Part shown: one piece after another, positions 4,202 through 16,976 of the stretch
How the letters are laid out: each line of letters begins with the position of its first letter
How positions within the stretch are numbered: position 1 is the stretch's first letter
Assembly (NCBI GenBank): GCA_009927165.1
Contig: RFNO01000134.1
Location: 1-43,528, forward strand
Reading direction: 5' to 3'
Origin: Pseudomonadota bacterium
GTDB taxonomy: Bacteria > Bdellovibrionota > FAC87 > UBA2466
Length of the DNA stretch: 43,528 bases
Position numbers and translations under genes: made by a program
The notes under the pieces: generated by a model
Database searches by the model: none
The model's input: only the letters and a program-made list of their open reading frames with translations
What the model was told of the DNA's origin: nothing

Positions 4202-4618
4202 TCAATGGACACCTTTTGGCTTTTCAAGTTTATCTGTAATTTTCTTGAGGGAACTTTTTTGCTCCGGTGTGAAACTGTTGGCAAAACTAGCAGGATCTTT
4301 TTTTGCCTTCTCCAAAAGTTGTTCCATTTTATTGGGATCTCCATTGGCGGCTATAGCAAGAGTCTGCATAATTTGGGCTGCTAATTTGTAAATTTCTTCC
4401 GAGTAAGCTCCCCCTACTTCTCTCAGGAACTGGTCCGCTTGTGCCGCTTTGGGGCTTTCCTTTAAAATTTCTTGTCGCTTTTCCGGATTGGTCAGTTGTT
4501 CCATTACCGTGGAAAGAGCTTTTTGTTGCTCGTTTGATAACTTTTCACCTAAAGAAACATGGGAAGTTCCCAAAAGTACAGTAACCAACAACAAAGCTCG
4601 AGAAAAGCAAAACGTCAT
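4202..4618 (-). CDS. Small secreted protein of unknown function
   Basis: The start chosen is ATG at 4618, six bases after a clear GGAGG; an in-frame TTG two codons earlier overlaps that ribosome site. The 138-residue product has a cleavable signal peptide (MTFCFSRALLLVTVLLGTSH, likely cut before EKLSN). The mature protein is a charged, all-helical domain of about 115 residues (SNEQQKALSTVMEQL, NPEKRQEILKESPKAA, DPNKMEQLLEKAKKDP). It has no cysteine in the mature part and no recognised family. It lies 60 bp downstream of the first ftsH on the same strand. It may be periplasmic and expressed with that operon, but it has its own strong ribosome site. Confidence 0.7.
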   Translation of the reverse strand: MTFCFSRALLLVTVLLGTSHVSLGEKLSNEQQKALSTVMEQLTNPEKRQEILKESPKAAQADQFLREVGGAYSEEIYKLAAQIMQTLAIAANGDPNKMEQLLEKAKKDPASFANSFTPEQKSSLKKITDKLEKPKGVH

Positions 4619-4678: not shown

Positions 4679-6553
4679 TTATCGCTTACTTATCAGCAAC
4701 TTGGAGGGTTCGATATGAGGTTGATAAGTTTTCCAAAGACTCATCAATTCACTCTCTTCCAATGTCTCTTGTTCAATAAGTTTTTTAGCGCCGGCTTCGA
4801 CAAACTCTCGATGCGAATTTAGTTCTTTGAAGGCCATCCGGAAGCCTTTTTCCAGCAGCGTTTTTACTTCGTGGTCAATGAGGTAGGCCGTCTCCTGGCT
4901 GAAAGGCATCCTTTCCCGAAGCCCTAAAGTAGAAGGTAAAAACGGAGACTCTCGATCTTCGAGCGATACCAAGCCTATCGGTTCACTCATACCAAATCGC
5001 GTGACCATGGAGCGGGCAAGCTCAGTAGCTTTGACTAAATCATCTTCCGCGCCGGTAGAGACCGAATCAAAAAATATTCTTTCGGAGGCTCGACCTCCCA
5101 AAAGCACAGCGATTTTTCTCAGCATTTGGTCTTGATCCATCAGATATCGATCTTCGGTAGGTCTTCGGATAGTGTATCCCAGCGCCCCAATTCCTCGAGG
5201 AATGATACTCACTTTATGAAGCCTTTCGCCAACACCCAGGGTGATTGAAGCAGTGGCGTGTCCCATTTCATGAAAAGCAATTCGCTTTTTTTCCTCTGGA
5301 TGAATCAGTTTAGATTTTTGTTCAAGACCTGCAATAATTCTTTCAATGGCTTTTTCAAAGTCAGTTTCGGTAACAGATGTTCCTTGGCGCCGTGTTGCAA
5401 ATAGAGCGGCTTCATTTACCAGGTTTGCCAAATCAGCGCCCGAAAAGCCGGGAGTCAGCGCTGCTATTCGTTCAAGCTTTACTTCTGGATCTAATTTAAT
5501 TTTTTTTGAATGAACCTTAAGAATTTGATGCCGTCCCACTTGGTCTGCATTATCAACTAGAACTTGTCGGTCGAATCGTCCTGCTCGTAGAAGCGCAGGA
5601 TCTAAAATCTCAGGACGGTTTGTAGCAGCTAGGATGAGCACGCCTTGACTACTGTCAAAGCCATCCATTTCTGCCAAAAGTTGGCCGAGCGTTTGTTCCT
5701 TTTCTTCATGGCCTCCAGAAACGATAGCACCCGCTCTGATTTTGCCAATCGCATCGATTTCATCAATAAACAAGATGCAGGGAGCGAGTTCCCTGGATTG
5801 TTGAAAGAGGTCCCTTACTCGGGCTGCCCCCAATCCAACAAACATTTCGACAAACTCCGAGCCATTTATTGATAAGAAAGGGACTTTAGCTTCTCCAGCG
5901 ACAGCTCGTGCTAATAAGGTCTTTCCAGTGCCTGGTGGACCCACCAGGAGTATGCCTTTGGGCGCTCTTCCACCTAATTGAGAGTACTGACGTGGGTTTT
6001 CCAGAAAGCTCACCATTTCACGCAGCTCTTCTTTTGCCTCATCCACCCCAGCTACATCTGAGAAAGTAGTCGAAATATCCTTCTCGACGTAAAGTTTTGC
6101 TTTGGAACGGGTGAGTCCTAAAAGCCCTCCTCTCGGGTCTCCCATCCCTCGTTTAAAAGAGAACATCCCGATTCGAAAAAGAAGAAATAGTGGAACCGAC
6201 CAGAAAAGAACATTCATCCAAAGAGGTGCTTCCGGTTCTGCTTGGAATGAAAGTTTATGGTTTTTGAGAACTTGGACCAGTTGAGGATCATCCATCCTAA
6301 CGGTAGTGAAATGTGTTTTGCCTGAGGGGAGCGGGGCGTTTAACTCGCCCACTAGCATTGTTTTTGTGACTTTCAATGACTTAACGGATTCGCTTTGGAG
6401 GTAGGTCAAAAAATCACTATAAGACAAGGTGTCGGAAAAACTGCGATTCAACCAGAAATTGAGCGCAAGAAAGAACACGAAAACCACTACGAGGAAAGGC
6501 AGGGGATTCCGGGAGGGGGGGGGCGACAGGGAATATTTCTTTCTTTTAACCAT
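4679..6553 (-). CDS. ftsH: ATP-dependent membrane zinc protease FtsH (first paralogue)
   Basis: 624 residues, the normal FtsH length. FtsH is a hexameric inner-membrane AAA+ protease that extracts and degrades membrane and some soluble proteins. Membrane helices lie at about 19-35 and 111-131, with a periplasmic domain between. Walker A GPPGTGKT is at 205-212, Walker B ILFIDEID near 260-267, and the second region of homology ([20 protein letters not shown]) near 310-329. The zinc site HEMGH is at 428-432, with the later Asp in STGAEDD. All catalytic residues are present. The start ATG directly abuts the TAA stop of the DUF2267 gene (6554), so translation is coupled. A second FtsH is at 14880-16976; the two differ clearly in the N-terminal and loop regions. 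The operon partners suggest a specialised rather than housekeeping role. Confidence 0.95.
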
Positions 6554-6991
6554 TTAAGCGCTTTTCTTCGGAGGTACGGCAGATGGCCAGAAAACACGAA
6601 GATCCTCGGGGCAACACGATCTAACATCATGAATCTCACCTTCAGAAATAAAGTCGGTGAGAAGTTGCAGAACACCGCGAACTAGCTGATTAGTATTTTT
6701 TGCAGATAAGCGGGGTAGCTTGTTTTCCACTGAAGTCAAAAGCGCATGAAGAGATTTGTCTCTAGTGCCCGAGCCACTGGTAGAAAAACCCTCATAATAA
6801 AGTCCTCTGATCAGCATAGGTAGTTGAGCACCCAACTGGACAGCTTCATTTAAGGGCAACCGATCCCTGATTTCATGAAGTACAATCTTGAACAACCGAT
6901 AAGCATCTTCGTCGGTGCTAAGCCCCAAACGAGATTTGAGTGTTCCGAGCCAAATCTGCGATTTTTCCAGTGTGTGTTGAAATGTACTCAT
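6554..6991 (-). CDS. DUF2267 protein
   Basis: 145 residues matching the DUF2267 pattern: an N-terminal TLEKSQIWLGTLKSRLG, then DAYRLFKIVLHEIRDRLPL, then the hallmark AAQLP-type segment here AQLPMLIRGLYYEGF. DUF2267 proteins are soluble helical proteins of unknown biochemical role. Its ATG overlaps the stop of the upstream aeRF-like gene by four bases (ATGA) and its stop abuts the start of ftsH. The three proteins are therefore probably made in a fixed ratio. An adaptor or regulatory role for the protease is a hypothesis only. Family assignment is confident; function is not. Confidence 0.85.
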   Translation of the reverse strand: MSTFQHTLEKSQIWLGTLKSRLGLSTDEDAYRLFKIVLHEIRDRLPLNEAVQLGAQLPMLIRGLYYEGFSTSGSGTRDKSLHALLTSVENKLPRLSAKNTNQLVRGVLQLLTDFISEGEIHDVRSCCPEDLRVFWPSAVPPKKSA

Positions 6992-7614
6992 CCTTCGGAC
7001 CTTTCTTTTGTTATAAATTTTGGAACCTGCCAGGCACCTTGTGATTTGGGGAAAAATCGTGGAGCCCGCGGTATTGGTTCAGGCAGATAAGAGAGAAGCT
7101 TCTGTTCCAATTGAGCTGAACTCAGCCAGGAATAATTTGCAGCGATTTCTAACTTCACTTTTTTATTGGTCAAACGTGAAAGTTTTGACCGAAAAGTTCC
7201 TAAAAGATGGGGTTCCGAAAAAATCCCCAGATGGGAAAACTCATTTTTTCTTCGATTTGCTTCCAAGAACTGGCTGGCTTTTAGGATTAGGATCTGTGAT
7301 AAGCGTTCTTTGGGTGAAAGGCGAGACGATAATCCATGTCGAGGATGCCCAGTTCCATGCCCGCCATGCGATTTCGAAAAGCTTTCAAAACTCCTCCCAG
7401 CGGAGTCCCGCAACCGCGATGAAACAGCATCTTTGTTGTCTAACTCATCATAGCAAACTACAGACTCAAGATGCTTTGAAGGTGCGCAGTAGGAAAATAC
7501 CTGTATTTTTCTGTTTTGTATTACTGCAAGCCACCATACGGTTTTGTTTTTTTGTCTAGCGCCCAAAGTGCTTTTTATTTCTACGCCCCTTTTTGTTTTC
7601 TTTTGTCTTCTCAT
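6988..7614 (-). CDS. Host-attachment / archaeo-eukaryotic release-factor-like protein
   Basis: The 208-residue product starts at ATG 7614. The frame is open further upstream to 7806 but would then run into the 3' end of the nitroreductase gene with non-conserved residues. The ribosome site is weak. The protein opens with NKTVWWLAVIQNRKIQVFSY, a nucleotide/RNA-binding-like beta start. It contains GRSFESF in the middle and a C-terminal fold (FLEANRRKNEFSHLGIFSEP, LLGTFRSKLSRL, KLEIAANYSWLSSAQLEQ). These match the family annotated as 'protein required for attachment to host cells', later grouped with bacterial aeRF1-like release-factor domains. Such proteins may act on stalled ribosomes, but this is not demonstrated for this family. 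First gene of the coupled aeRF/DUF2267/ftsH trio. Confidence 0.65.
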   Translation of the reverse strand: MRRQKKTKRGVEIKSTLGARQKNKTVWWLAVIQNRKIQVFSYCAPSKHLESVVCYDELDNKDAVSSRLRDSAGRSFESFSKSHGGHGTGHPRHGLSSRLSPKERLSQILILKASQFLEANRRKNEFSHLGIFSEPHLLGTFRSKLSRLTNKKVKLEIAANYSWLSSAQLEQKLLSYLPEPIPRAPRFFPKSQGAWQVPKFITKERSEG

Positions 7615-7729: not shown

Positions 7730-8464
7730 CTAAACTTCTCTGACAAACCAGCTCTTATCTGCGCGTATTCGGGGCAAAGTAACTCCATCGGATCTGCGTT
7801 TGCCAATAGCGATCACCATAGGAATTAAAACCTGTCCAGGCAATCCTAAAAGCTTACGGATTCTTTTGCTGTCGATGCCTTCGAGTGGGCAGGAGTCATA
7901 ACCTGAAGCTCGTAAGGACAGCATAAGGTTTTCGCAAGCAAGGGCTGTCGATTTTGTAGCCCAGATTTTCATATCTGATATGCTTGAAGGCTCTCTTGAT
8001 ATGGGTTTTTTTAGCCCAAGAAAAAAAACAAATAGTTTTTTGATGACACCCCAGAAACCAAGAGGCCCTTGCGAGTAAACCATGGGTACCAATTTGTCAT
8101 AGTAATGGGTAGCAGCTTTGGGAATTCTCACTCCTTGGTTAGCAAGCTCCTTTAATTGGATCTTCATGTCTTCGCAATTGCGTCTCCAAGTATCAATCCT
8201 AGCAATGCATACGATTAACTCCGCAGCCGTTGAGGCCGCTGCCTGGGAGAAACAAGCCTGAACGAGTTGCTCTTTTTTGGAAGTGCTTCGAACCCAAACA
8301 AACTCCCATGGTTGTAAATTTGATGAATTTGGTGCTAACAAAGCCAAGTCGAGAGCTGTTCTCACCACTTCTTCTGGGACAGGGACTTTGTCAAAAAGCC
8401 GAATGCTTCTTCGGGTTTTTACTATTTCTTGAAAAGCTCGAGCTAGTATTTCTTGTTCAGACAT
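7730..8464 (-). CDS. Nitroreductase family flavoprotein
   Basis: 244 residues. The N-terminus carries the FMN phosphate-binding pattern of NfsB/FRase-type enzymes (TRRSIRLFDKVPVPEEVV), followed by LALLAPNSSNLQPWEFVWV, the classical P-S-x-N-x-Q-P-W element. ACENLMLSLRASGYDSCPL and the GLPGQVLIPMVIAIGKR segment complete the fold. These enzymes use NAD(P)H and FMN to reduce nitro-aromatics, quinones or other substrates; substrate not predictable here. It lies 7 bp downstream of the DUF2867 gene and 115 bp upstream of the aeRF-like gene, all on the same strand, so it probably belongs to the photolyase transcript. Confidence 0.9.
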   Translation of the reverse strand: MSEQEILARAFQEIVKTRRSIRLFDKVPVPEEVVRTALDLALLAPNSSNLQPWEFVWVRSTSKKEQLVQACFSQAAASTAAELIVCIARIDTWRRNCEDMKIQLKELANQGVRIPKAATHYYDKLVPMVYSQGPLGFWGVIKKLFVFFLGLKKPISREPSSISDMKIWATKSTALACENLMLSLRASGYDSCPLEGIDSKRIRKLLGLPGQVLIPMVIAIGKRRSDGVTLPRIRADKSWFVREV

Positions 8465-8471
8465 CTGACCC

Positions 8472-8993
8472 TCACCGTAAGCTGTTCAGAAGAGATTTAA
8501 AAATGAGCTGATGGGCGGGTTTAGTCAAAAGGAAATAAACTTTCCCAAAATTATCGGTAAACTTTGCAGTGGAAGCCAGAATTGCTTGGCGGTGTCCTTG
8601 ATTGAGGATAATTCCCACATGAGCAACAAAATGAGGATCGGTATAGTTAAGGATCAGCTCGAATGGGGTAGATTCAGCCACTAAGAAGTTTCCGATTTTC
8701 GAGTTAACTGAAAAATCCAGTGAACTGAAGTCGGTGGGGACGCCCTCAAGCGGATTCGTCATGCCCCAGCGAGAAAAAAAAATCTTTCTCAGCCGCAAGA
8801 AAAGAAGGACCCATCGAGGATAGCGTTCTGCAATCAGTTTCAACGCAGACGGGGGATCTAGGGGGGGCAAGTGGGATACATCGATTGAGTACGCATCGTG
8901 ATAGTCAGAAGCCGAAATAAAACGATTCAAAAAAGAATGTTTGGGAATAAAAGAGGAGACGGCTTTGTTTCTGTGATCTATTTGAGGGGGCAT
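8472..8993 (-). CDS. DUF2867 protein
   Basis: 173 residues. The C-terminal half fits DUF2867: GNFLVAESTPFELILNYTDP, a beta segment, then GKVYFLLTKPAHQLIFKSLL. The last piece is the usual G-x-L/V-Y-x-P-x-H-x-L-I ending. Members occur alone or fused to short-chain dehydrogenases; biochemical role unknown. The gene begins inside the last 16 bp of the photolyase-like gene, and the nitroreductase follows after 7 bp. DUF2867 genes next to photolyases are consistent with a light or oxidative-damage unit; that part is inference. Confidence 0.75.
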   Translation of the reverse strand: MPPQIDHRNKAVSSFIPKHSFLNRFISASDYHDAYSIDVSHLPPLDPPSALKLIAERYPRWVLLFLRLRKIFFSRWGMTNPLEGVPTDFSSLDFSVNSKIGNFLVAESTPFELILNYTDPHFVAHVGIILNQGHRQAILASTAKFTDNFGKVYFLLTKPAHQLIFKSLLNSLR

Positions 8994-10474
8994 ACTTTGG
9001 TTTTGAATTCATTCGCAAGTTTTTCTATTTGATTAAATCGCTCTGGCTTCATTTTCTTTAATGAGCGGGCCATCATGCTTAGCCGTGGGTTTTTTAAAAA
9101 GAAAGATTCATGCTTTTTGATGAAAGTCCAAAAGAGCCCATCTGCGATATCACACCAAGGCCCCTTTTCAAAATCTCCCATTTTGAGCAGATAATTGGAA
9201 CCACAAAAATAGGGCTTGGTTGAAAATATGCCCCCATCTGAGAAGAGAGCCATTCCGTAAACATTGGGCCCCATGACCCAATCTGAAGAGTCTACAAAAA
9301 GTTCCATGAACCATCGATGAGCTTCTCGGGGTTCTACTTCACACAAAAGCATAAAATTGCCGAGAATCATGAGTCGCTCAATGTGATGAGCATAGCTCAG
9401 TCGAATTGTTTTTTTTATAACATAGTCAAGAGGCGGCAATCCGGTAGTTCCCTCATACCAGTGATTGCTAAGTTGTCTGCGGTGATTCCAAAAGTTTGAT
9501 TGGTCTTCGATTTGGCTAAAATTCTGATAAATTCCACGTATGAACTCACGCCAGCCGATGACTTGGCGGATGAAACCTTCAAGAGAGTTAAGAGGAATCT
9601 TATTTTTTTTGCCTTCTGCCAAGACAAAATCAATCACTTCTTGAGGAGTAATGAGCCCTAAATTAAGGCTGGGGGTAAGCACCGAGTGGTAAACAAAGTC
9701 TGAGCGTTGGGATACGGCATCTTCATAATCTCCGAAAAAAGAAAGTCGCTCTTTAGTAAATTGTTTGAGCCATGTTAGGGCCTCTTGTCGAGATGTCGGG
9801 AGCCAAAAATCACAGCTATTGCCATAATGCTGGGAAAAAAGTTCATCTGTGAGTCGAGTTACTTCTTCAAGTTCTTTGGACTTCACTACCGGCGGAAGAC
9901 CGGGGGGGACCAGACCTTTCACCAGTTTCTTTCTGTTTTCAGTGTCAAAACTCCATTTTCCACCAGTGGGACTTCCATCTTTTTCCAATAACACCTTAAG
10001 GCCTTTTCTTTGAGACTCATAAAAAGTCTTCATAAACGGCTTTTTGGTTTTTGATAAATATCGTTGAAACTCAGTGCGAGAAGTCAGAAACATGGGGCTG
10101 GGTTCAATAGCTAACGGTAGCTTGTTGTCTTGAGCAAATGATTGGAGGCGGTCCTCCATAAATTTGTCTTCGATGTCAAAGGTCACCAGTCGATCGATTC
10201 TATTGGTTTTGATGAAAGCGTGCAGTTTGTCTTCATAGGAAAGCCGAACGTTTGATGGAGTCAATTTATCGTAGTGAACTTCTACCCCCAGCTGCCGCAA
10301 AGCTTCGGCATATCGACGCATCGCTGTGAGGAAAAGAATGATCTTATGTTTATGATATTTGAAGTGGGTACAGAGGCCATAGTCTTCGGCCATAAAAACG
10401 ATAGCGGGAAGACCAGTTTTCTTCAGTGTTTGAGGAAAGAGCTGATTACCCAAAATAAGACGAGCAGTTTTCAA
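8978..10474 (-). CDS. Photolyase/cryptochrome-related protein (DPRP type)
   Basis: 498 residues, typical of the deoxyribodipyrimidine photolyase-related (FeS-BCP, PhrB-like) family that repairs (6-4) photoproducts or acts as a light sensor. The N-terminal antenna domain opens with RLILGNQLFP. The FAD domain has YAHHIERLMILGNF (tandem His 363-364), WFMELFVDSSDWVMGPNVYG and FSDGGIFSTKPY. In PhrB an Fe-S cluster is held by Cys residues including a C-x2-C pair after the KPY...KM segment. Here that region is shortened to KMGDFEKGPWCDIADGLFW with a single Cys, so the cluster is probably absent. Start is TTG 10474: an in-frame stop lies five codons upstream, AGG is seven bases away, and the next Met would delete the conserved first strand. 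Confidence 0.88.
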   Translation of the reverse strand: MKTARLILGNQLFPQTLKKTGLPAIVFMAEDYGLCTHFKYHKHKIILFLTAMRRYAEALRQLGVEVHYDKLTPSNVRLSYEDKLHAFIKTNRIDRLVTFDIEDKFMEDRLQSFAQDNKLPLAIEPSPMFLTSRTEFQRYLSKTKKPFMKTFYESQRKGLKVLLEKDGSPTGGKWSFDTENRKKLVKGLVPPGLPPVVKSKELEEVTRLTDELFSQHYGNSCDFWLPTSRQEALTWLKQFTKERLSFFGDYEDAVSQRSDFVYHSVLTPSLNLGLITPQEVIDFVLAEGKKNKIPLNSLEGFIRQVIGWREFIRGIYQNFSQIEDQSNFWNHRRQLSNHWYEGTTGLPPLDYVIKKTIRLSYAHHIERLMILGNFMLLCEVEPREAHRWFMELFVDSSDWVMGPNVYGMALFSDGGIFSTKPYFCGSNYLLKMGDFEKGPWCDIADGLFWTFIKKHESFFLKNPRLSMMARSLKKMKPERFNQIEKLANEFKTKVCPLK

Positions 10475-14879: not shown

Positions 14880-16976
14880 ATGTCAGACTTAGATAACATC
14901 CAAGACAAAAACGGGCTCAGTTCGTCTTCGTCAGACTCGTCAGCTGAACCTCGTCATTCCGAGTCTGAACAAAAGCCAAAAATGGGATCTCGTTCTTCCA
15001 AAAAAGATAAACCTGACCGTCCAAGGCTGCCTGCCTGGTCCACGAGAAACGGGTTGTGGAGTTGGATTTTGTTTGGTGTGGGGCTGATTCTTCTGGTGTC
15101 TGTTTATTCGAAACCTGACTTTGCTGCCAAGGAAATCCCCTACAGTGATTTTCGAGCAAAAATCAAGAATGGTGAAATAAAAAGAGTTGTTTTATCGCCA
15201 ACGTTGGTAAAGGGTTTTTCAGTTGATACTTCCGCGAGAGGTGCGTCCGCCAGTACCGCCGGAGCTTTCTTTGTTTCTATCCCGGTGGAAGACGGAAAAT
15301 TAATAGAACTCATGGAGTCTCATGGAGTGCGTTACGAGCAAGAGAACGTCGCACTTAAAAATATCTTTCTTCATTGGATTCTTCCCGTGTTGGTCCTTTT
15401 GGTTTTGTGGAGAGTGTTATTTGCCCGAGCTTTTAAAATGGGACCAGGCGCAGGAATCATGAGCTTTGGTAAAAACCGCGCTAAGCTAGTAGCGGAAGAG
15501 TCGAAGAAAGTGTCTTTCGAAGATGTGGCCGGTTGCGACGAAGCCAAAGAAGAATTAGCAGAAATTATCGACTTTCTAAAAACCCCTCAAAAATTCAGGG
15601 CTATTGGTGGAAAAATTCCTAAGGGGATCCTGTTGGTGGGGCCTCCTGGAACTGGAAAAACTCTGTTGGCAAAAGCAGTGGCAGGCGAAGCTGGTGTTCC
15701 TTTTTTCAGTCTTAGCGGTTCCGAATTTGTTGAGATGTTTGTTGGAGTAGGAGCAGCTCGGGTAAGAGATTTGTTCGGACAAGCAATTGAAAAAAGTCCG
15801 TGCATTATTTTCATCGATGAGTTGGATGCGATTGGCAAAGTCAGAAGCGCTGTCTCTCCGATGGGTGGACATGATGAACGAGAGCAAACGTTGAATCAGC
15901 TTTTAGTGGAAATGGATGGTTTTGATTCCCGCACTGGAGTTATCATCATGGCTGCCACCAACCGTCCGGAGACACTAGATCCCGCTCTCATGAGACCCGG
16001 CCGATTTGACCGTCAAGTTGTCGTGGATCGCCCAGATATTAAGGGGAGAGAGGCGATATTAGCGATTCATTGCAAGAATGTTAAGTTGTCGGAAAATGTA
16101 GACTTAAAAGTGGTAGCAAGCCGAACACCGGGTTTTGTCGGGGCTGACTTGGCTAATGTTGCAAACGAAGCAGCTCTTCTTGCGGTCAGAAAGAATAAAA
16201 CTGTTGTTGAATTATCAGATTTTGAAGATGCGGTGGACCGAGTAGTGGCTGGTTTGCAGAAGAAAAATCGTATCATGAGTTCCTTAGAGAAACGGATTGT
16301 CGCTTTCCACGAAACAGGACATGCCTTGGTGACGTATTTTACGGAAGGAACTGATCCTGTTCATAAAGTGTCGGTGATTCCAAGAGGGTTTGGAGCCCTT
16401 GGTTTTACAATGACACTTCCAAAAGAGGACCGATATTTAATGACCCGAAAGGAACTCTTGGCCCGAATTGATATTCTGTTCGGTGGCCGAGTGGCTGAAG
16501 AAGTTATTTTTCAGGAAATTTCTACTGGGGCGCAAGATGATATTCAAAAGGCCACGGATATAGCGAAACGCATGGTAATGGAATATGGAATGAGTGAAGC
16601 CTGCGGGCAAAGAAGTTTTTCTCCAGAAAGATCAACTTTTATTCAAGCTCCAGGAGGTTCTCTCTCGGCAGCCAGAGAATACAGTGACGCGATTGCGGAA
16701 AAAATTGACTTAGAAATTCAAGCGATTCTAAGCGCATCTTACGAGCGAGTCAGAACCATTCTACGAGCGCATAAAGACCTTTTGGAGTACGTCGCCCAAA
16801 AGTTAATGGAAAAAGAAGTGATTGAAGGAAAAGAATTGGAGCTGATGGTCGGGGAATTCAATTTGAGAAAACAAGGGAAAGTTGTTGCTCCGGTGATGGA
16901 TGCCGAAACCTCACTGGAAACTGCTGACCTGATACCTGGCAAATGGGACGGGGTATCGCCCGGACCTGAGTTGTAA
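14880..16976 (+). CDS. ftsH: ATP-dependent membrane zinc protease FtsH (second paralogue)
   Basis: 698 residues, longer than the first copy because of a hydrophilic Ser/Lys-rich N-terminal extension of about 55 residues and a longer C-tail. Membrane helices lie at about 60-77 and 163-182. Walker A GPPGTGKT is at 254-261, Walker B IIFIDELD near 309-316 and [20 protein letters not shown] near 359-378. The zinc site is HETGH (477-481), followed by STGAQDD. All catalytic residues are present. The ATG has no Shine-Dalgarno; no better start is visible, and residue 35 Met would remove most of the extension. The acidic 73-aa protein and psd follow closely. Given the essential lipid and asd genes beside it, this may be the housekeeping copy, but that is inference. 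Confidence 0.95.

Follow-up and report, generated by a model that had tools for sequence, protein, structure and literature searches.

A compact Host_attach–DUF2267–FtsH gene trio that is probably a small stress-survival operon

Three consecutive minus-strand genes in a 43,528-nucleotide stretch of DNA from Bdellovibrionota (the whole of which is referred to here as the window) probably constitute a small stress-survival operon built of known parts. The genes, identified by reading the sequence and by Pfam comparison, are arranged in the order Host_attach gene, DUF2267 gene, and FtsH gene (genes 1, 2, and 3). Our preferred reading, to which we give a probability of about 50%, is that the three genes form a compact operon for stress or dormancy, in which gene 1 acts on ribosomes in a Balon-like manner and damaged membrane proteins are cleared by an accessory FtsH. 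What is new is the compact three-gene arrangement; the associations of these families with stress genes were already known. Host_attach and DUF2267 are widespread families, one with a misleading name and the other lacking a function. The trio is therefore a small testable case, asking if one aeRF1 middle domain is enough for ribosome binding or protection and if DUF2267 works with FtsH. Positive answers would assign functions to both of these large families and would bring one-domain proteins into the Balon type of hibernation factor.

In the mechanism that we propose, the gene 1 protein would most likely bind to the large ribosomal subunit, close to the A site or the peptidyl-transferase centre. 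There it would, like Balon, hold or shield idle or stalled ribosomes at translation shutdown without peptide release. The extra FtsH would degrade damaged membrane proteins and misfolded proteins beside the housekeeping FtsH, and the DUF2267 protein would perhaps be an adaptor or regulator for gene 1 or gene 3. We infer the ribosome binding by gene 1, the co-expression of the three genes, and a functional or physical link between their products from the analyses described below.

Organization and conservation of the trio

The source genome is a 2.47-Mb draft consisting of 137 contigs and estimated to be 96% complete. The relevant features in the window are the following.

7614-6988, minus strand: gene 1, predicted stand-alone aeRF1-middle-domain protein (Host_attach PF10116/baeRF family 12); ATG at 7614, TGA at 6990-6988
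6991-6554, minus strand: gene 2, DUF2267 (PF10025), 145 aa; ATG at 6991, TAA at 6556-6554
6553-4679, minus strand: gene 3, putative accessory FtsH, 624 aa; ATG from 6553
6988-6991, minus strand: ATGA start/stop overlap between genes 1 and 2, read from the sequence
6551-6556, minus strand: TAAATG, gene 2 stop abutting the gene 3 start, read from the sequence
7327-7368 (approximate), minus strand: loop roughly where release factors have their GGQ loop, SKSHGGHGTGHPRH; located by alignment and by the secondary structure of the model, where pLDDT is low

An earlier note on this DNA had described the ATGA overlap and the DUF2267 stop abutting the FtsH start, and both junctions were confirmed by direct reading. 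Its range, 6554-7614, takes in genes 1 and 2 and leaves gene 3 (4679-6553) outside. Taken by itself the ATGA overlap is ordinary, because such junctions are very common in bacterial operons. An AAAGG-type ribosome-binding sequence precedes the start of gene 2 in all three species of the genus, and gene 3 is without a clear Shine-Dalgarno ribosome-binding site in two of the three, including the one in the window. This combination of an AAAGG before gene 2 and no clear site at gene 3 is compatible with translational coupling, of which it is no proof, and the three products would then be made in step, as the earlier note had proposed. Promoter-like sites at the trio were no more numerous than in shuffled sequences, and no promoter is claimed.

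G001 and G002, the two other genomes of the genus, have the three genes in the same order. The proteins encoded there share 41-42% (gene 1), 53-59% (gene 2), and 71-75% (gene 3) identity with those of the window. Across the three genomes the first junction is an ATGA overlap, a 4-nt gap, or a 13-nt gap, and the second is abutting, TGATG, or abutting. The flanks of the trio in the window differ from those in G001 and G002, which are alike. In the latter two genomes there is a divergent set with a glycosyltransferase-like gene upstream and a histidine-kinase-like gene downstream (names assigned by eye). In the window, a nitroreductase, a DUF2867 protein, and a photolyase-related protein are encoded upstream on the same strand (7730-10474, minus strand), and none of the other window genes tested was found within 18 kb around the trio in G001 or G002. 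Since the order is kept while the flanks have changed, the trio behaves as a unit. Chance adjacency was ruled out by this conservation in three species with different flanks.

Two minor observations were made at these loci. The FtsH gene of the G002 trio (L034:9936-11769) is split by a frameshift at an A run, which reflects either a fault in the draft assembly or genuine decay. In the window, a gene for a small, possibly secreted protein (4202-4618, minus strand) follows about 60 bp downstream of FtsH; its LTXXQ match is weak and falls below the cut-off, and no such gene was found next to the trios of the sister genomes.

Phylum-wide conservation of the trio was rejected by a search of 369 genomes. 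Of these, 46 have DUF2267 and 89 have Host_attach, and the two are neighbours in no genome other than the three of this genus. Across the phylum the three families are mostly unlinked. Host_attach and DUF2267 are nevertheless present together in 21 of the 46 genomes, versus about 11 expected (hypergeometric p 0.0005; a hand count, uncorrected for shared ancestry). In other members of the same taxonomic family, Host_attach and DUF2267 are located on different contigs and neither is beside FtsH. G007 is one such genome, with the two on separate contigs; its DUF2267 gene is separated by 10 bp from a convergent gene that encodes a fusion of an HPF (S30AE) domain with a cold-shock domain (L036:7665-8225, plus strand), and a CBS protein is encoded nearby. 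In G012, DUF2267 adjoins a CBS protein. DUF2267 reading frames of about 300 aa occur in several other phylum genomes, and one double DUF2267 protein (L046:7822-8709, plus strand) is encoded near a ribose-phosphate pyrophosphokinase-like gene. The same locus includes a gene (L046:10802-11185, plus strand) for a 127-aa protein with VIWLDSEKAHIF and no Pfam match, which by eye is reminiscent of small baeRF-like domains.

Properties of the three proteins

The gene 1 protein matched Host_attach (PF10116) in Pfam with an E-value of 2e-14 and 54.8 bits (cut-off 26.7). It also matched baeRF_family12 (PF18856) with 1.4e-9 and 39.1 bits (cut-off 27.7), and both matches cover nearly the whole profile. 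It consists of 208 aa, with a basic N-terminal tail and a C-terminal extension, a pI of 10.5, and a net charge of +22. A net charge of +17 to +23 was found in eight of the nine members of its family that were measured. This strong positive charge is compatible with binding to RNA or the ribosome. Members of the gene 1 family are distinguished by an N-terminal tail of the sequence KTKxGV, which is basic, and by a GGH(Q)TG loop, neither of which is seen in typical Host_attach relatives of the GRHxxEP type, with which gene 1 shares the Host_attach/baeRF family 12 profile and predicted fold.

An AlphaFold model of gene 1, built from six sequences, reached a mean pLDDT of 70 and a pTM of 0.58, that is, moderate confidence. 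Most core strands and helices had pLDDT values of about 80-93, and residues 62-96 were mostly below 50. In the model, the protein adopts an RNase H-like fold, as in the middle domain of aeRF1. When it was compared with the PDB using Foldseek, the top matches were to Balon Msmeg1130 (E 2e-6 and 5e-6), followed by archaeal aRF1 (5e-5 and 1.5e-4) and then eRF1 and Pelota; generic RNase H-fold proteins appeared at about 1e-3. The resemblance to release-factor domains suggested in the earlier note is thus upheld at the level of a structure prediction. A sequence search of the PDB with gene 1 produced no match, so that the predicted model is the basis for assigning this fold.

The loop that lies, by alignment, roughly where release factors have GGQ reads GGHGTGHPRH in the window protein. 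Other members of the gene 1 family have GGHQ(T/S), two have only xxQTG, and wider relatives do not have the motif. The catalytic Gln that active aeRF1/VLRF1 peptidyl hydrolases have in GGQ or GGxSQ is absent from gene 1, and the loop Gln of its relatives is Gly here. Hydrolysis by gene 1 is unsupported because this Gln, common in relatives, is missing from the window protein. Neither a stop-codon-binding N domain nor a Pelota-type C-terminal domain was found by Pfam or in the model. Peptide release is therefore unlikely, given the missing GGQ and a protein reduced to the middle domain. Most baeRF families have been judged to lack hydrolase activity and to serve as non-catalytic A-site binders with a link to hibernation factors (Burroughs and Aravind, PMC6514570).

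Balon itself has been shown to be a three-domain, non-catalytic A-site binder of this kind, and its genes are situated in stress operons (PMC10901736). The Balon proteins (Msmeg1130, Rv2629, and Balon of P. urativorans) are the nearest solved structures by Foldseek, lack a GGQ as gene 1 does, and are often encoded with stress genes and RaiA. The differences are also clear. Sequence identity between gene 1 and Balon is about 9% across the match, and Balon contacts EF-Tu and the decoding centre with its three domains while gene 1 has the middle domain only. The three-domain architecture with the EF-Tu contact and the bL27 trap (PMC10901736) is not found in the single-domain gene 1 protein.

The gene 2 protein matched DUF2267 (PF10025) with 4.7e-25. 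Its model is all-helical, with a pLDDT of 89, and the two halves of the protein are alike in sequence, an internal repetition noted by eye. The only structural match found with Foldseek was Thermus TTHA1432 (PDB 2ysk), also matched by sequence, which has the same fold (TM 0.85, 39% identity over the structural match). The fold search did not reveal a function for DUF2267, as this sole match is itself without known function.

The gene 3 protein has the FtsH_ext, AAA, and M41 domains (Pfam) and matched the NCBIfam model TIGR01241 (FtsH_fam) with 3.5e-215. The Walker A sequence is GPPGTGKT, the zinc site is HEMGH (the HEXGH form), and there are two hydrophobic N-terminal segments. Genes of the FtsH type number at least four in the source genome. 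A tree of 43 rows groups the trio FtsH with the FtsH proteins of the E. coli tLST, of Devosia and Rhizobium/Sinorhizobium stress islands, and of a fourth copy in the source genome, on contig 71 (support 100/94). No obvious stress cluster surrounds the contig 71 copy. A 59-row tree, which includes more of the housekeeping copies, places the trio FtsH outside a 41-row clade (support 96/98). In that clade are the FtsH linked to tilS-glmM, the chromosomal FtsH of Salmonella, the Bdellovibrionota housekeeping copies, and the other FtsH of the window. As it lies outside the housekeeping clade, the trio FtsH is classified from these trees as an accessory type rather than a housekeeping copy, and which accessory FtsH is closest to it is not settled by them. 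The other FtsH paralogue in the window (14880-16976, plus strand) is of a different type; it belongs to a clade that is found throughout the same family and order and is separate from both the housekeeping and the trio FtsH. Both trees rejected the trio FtsH as a recent duplicate of this paralogue. A search in phages found only distant FtsH.

The tLST also encodes an accessory FtsH, which matches the trio FtsH at 51% and groups with it in the 43-row tree. The FtsH encoded by the tLST backs up the core FtsH in Pseudomonas aeruginosa clone C, but for E. coli no part of it in stress tolerance has been demonstrated (PMC8290217). The two loci are otherwise different. The tLST core dna-hsp20-clpG (as defined in PMC8290217) is absent among the neighbours at the three trio loci, no Hsp20, ClpG/K, YfdX, or HdeD gene lies beside the trio, and the tLST locus that was compared includes neither DUF2267 nor Host_attach.

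Stress clusters in other bacteria and alternative explanations

A scan of named genomes for DUF2267 identified 60 loci in many phyla. Fifty genomes were searched for the three families, and DUF2267 and Host_attach were neighbours or near neighbours in Methyloceanibacter, Aquibium, and Devosia; in Hydrogenedentota, DUF2267 was near a longer baeRF-like protein. A region of about 12 kb in Devosia nitrariae includes DUF2267, Host_attach, phosphoribosyltransferase (PRTase), Hsp20-, FixLJ-, and GroEL-like genes, and FtsH (the phosphoribosyltransferase and FtsH named by Pfam, the others by eye). Plasmid pSF45436d of Sinorhizobium fredii has FtsH next to DUF2267 on the same strand with 138 bp between them, and within the same 40 kb there are Usp, Hsp20, and BON genes, an HPF/RaiA gene, and two genes annotated as Host_attach. 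A plasmid of Rhizobium sp. WYJ-E13 has all three families within 16 kb together with Hsp20-, Usp-, BON-, and CBS-like genes (by eye). The earlier note had made its proposal depend on a conserved neighbourhood outside close relatives. The outcome is mixed: stress clusters in rhizobia and Devosia again bring the three families together, within 9-20 kb, while the trio as such is confined to its genus among the phylum genomes. The Rhizobiales islands thus resemble the trio in the co-location of the families, and in S. fredii in the adjacency of FtsH and DUF2267; they differ in that the families are spread among Hsp20, Usp, BON, and CBS genes rather than arranged as a three-gene operon.

Among 145 genes within 1.7 kb of DUF2267, Pfam identified CBS (5), PRTase (5), erythromycin-esterase (4), Hsp20 (4), and Host_attach (2). 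None of these five families was among the top families of 145 control genes located more than 4.5 kb from DUF2267. Usp was about equal, with 3 near DUF2267 and 2 in the distant control. These are small numbers obtained with heuristic gene calling. Published expression studies agree with the association: a Host_attach gene is among the 50 most heat-shock-induced genes in Mesorhizobium loti (PMC3989490), and two Host_attach genes are induced by microoxia in Bradyrhizobium diazoefficiens, one of them numbered beside Usp and CBS genes with nitroreductase and DnaJ genes close (PMC6515984). A stress role for the trio is supported by this gene context. The Bradyrhizobium microoxia gene group may also resemble the mycobacterial dormancy regulon.

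A stress role is likelier than a dedicated pathway for stalled ribosomes because the families recur in stress clusters and the FtsH is of the stress-island type. The earlier note had proposed a combined role in clearing stalled ribosome products or damaged membrane proteins. The release-factor fold survives from that proposal, and active clearing by peptide release is unsupported, as there is no GGQ and there are no flanking domains. In a ribosome rescue and proteolysis pathway, gene 1 would release or dislodge stalled chains and DUF2267 would pass them to FtsH, a known degrader of aberrant membrane proteins. The predicted aeRF1-type fold and the GGHQ(T/S) loop of several relatives agree with such a pathway. 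We consider it unlikely in view of the Gly in place of the Gln, the absence of GGH from other relatives, and the catalytic inactivity assigned to most baeRF families (Burroughs and Aravind, PMC6514570). Furthermore, SmpB is encoded on contig 136, and trans-translation is probably present. No tmRNA match above the Rfam cut-off was found in the draft genome, only weak tRNA-sized ones; the tmRNA gene is either divergent or missing from the draft. A further proposal takes gene 1 for a minimal hibernation or shutdown factor of a single domain, tied through DUF2267 as an adaptor to a dedicated accessory FtsH; ribosome shutdown would then be coupled directly to membrane proteolysis. We consider this quite unlikely.

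It is possible, with a probability clearly lower than that of the preferred reading, that the genes are merely co-regulated, i.e., three independent stress genes that share one signal and no common biochemical pathway. In the Rhizobiales the families are found in loose clusters alongside numerous unrelated stress genes, in differing orders and on either strand, and the scarcity of linkage across the phylum points in the same direction. However, overlapping or abutting junctions and an order kept in three diverged species with changed flanks suggest selection for the unit. That gene 1 is a true attachment protein, in an operon for surface attachment or predation, is very improbable. Only the family name and the predatory members of the phylum suggest it, whereas the protein is basic, has a predicted release-factor fold and no apparent signal peptide in its sequence, and belongs to a family found in free-living bacteria and stress islands. 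The evidence is thus most consistent with a compact stress or dormancy operon with a Balon-like gene 1 protein and an accessory FtsH.

Two further observations concern the neighbours of these families. The nitroreductase gene upstream of the trio has a counterpart near a microoxia-induced Bradyrhizobium Host_attach gene (PMC6515984). A Chelativorans plasmid includes an island-type FtsH (L173:8001-9848, plus strand) with identical TniQ/TniB/transposase genes on both sides, which suggests that this FtsH is part of a Tn7/Tn5053-like mobile element.
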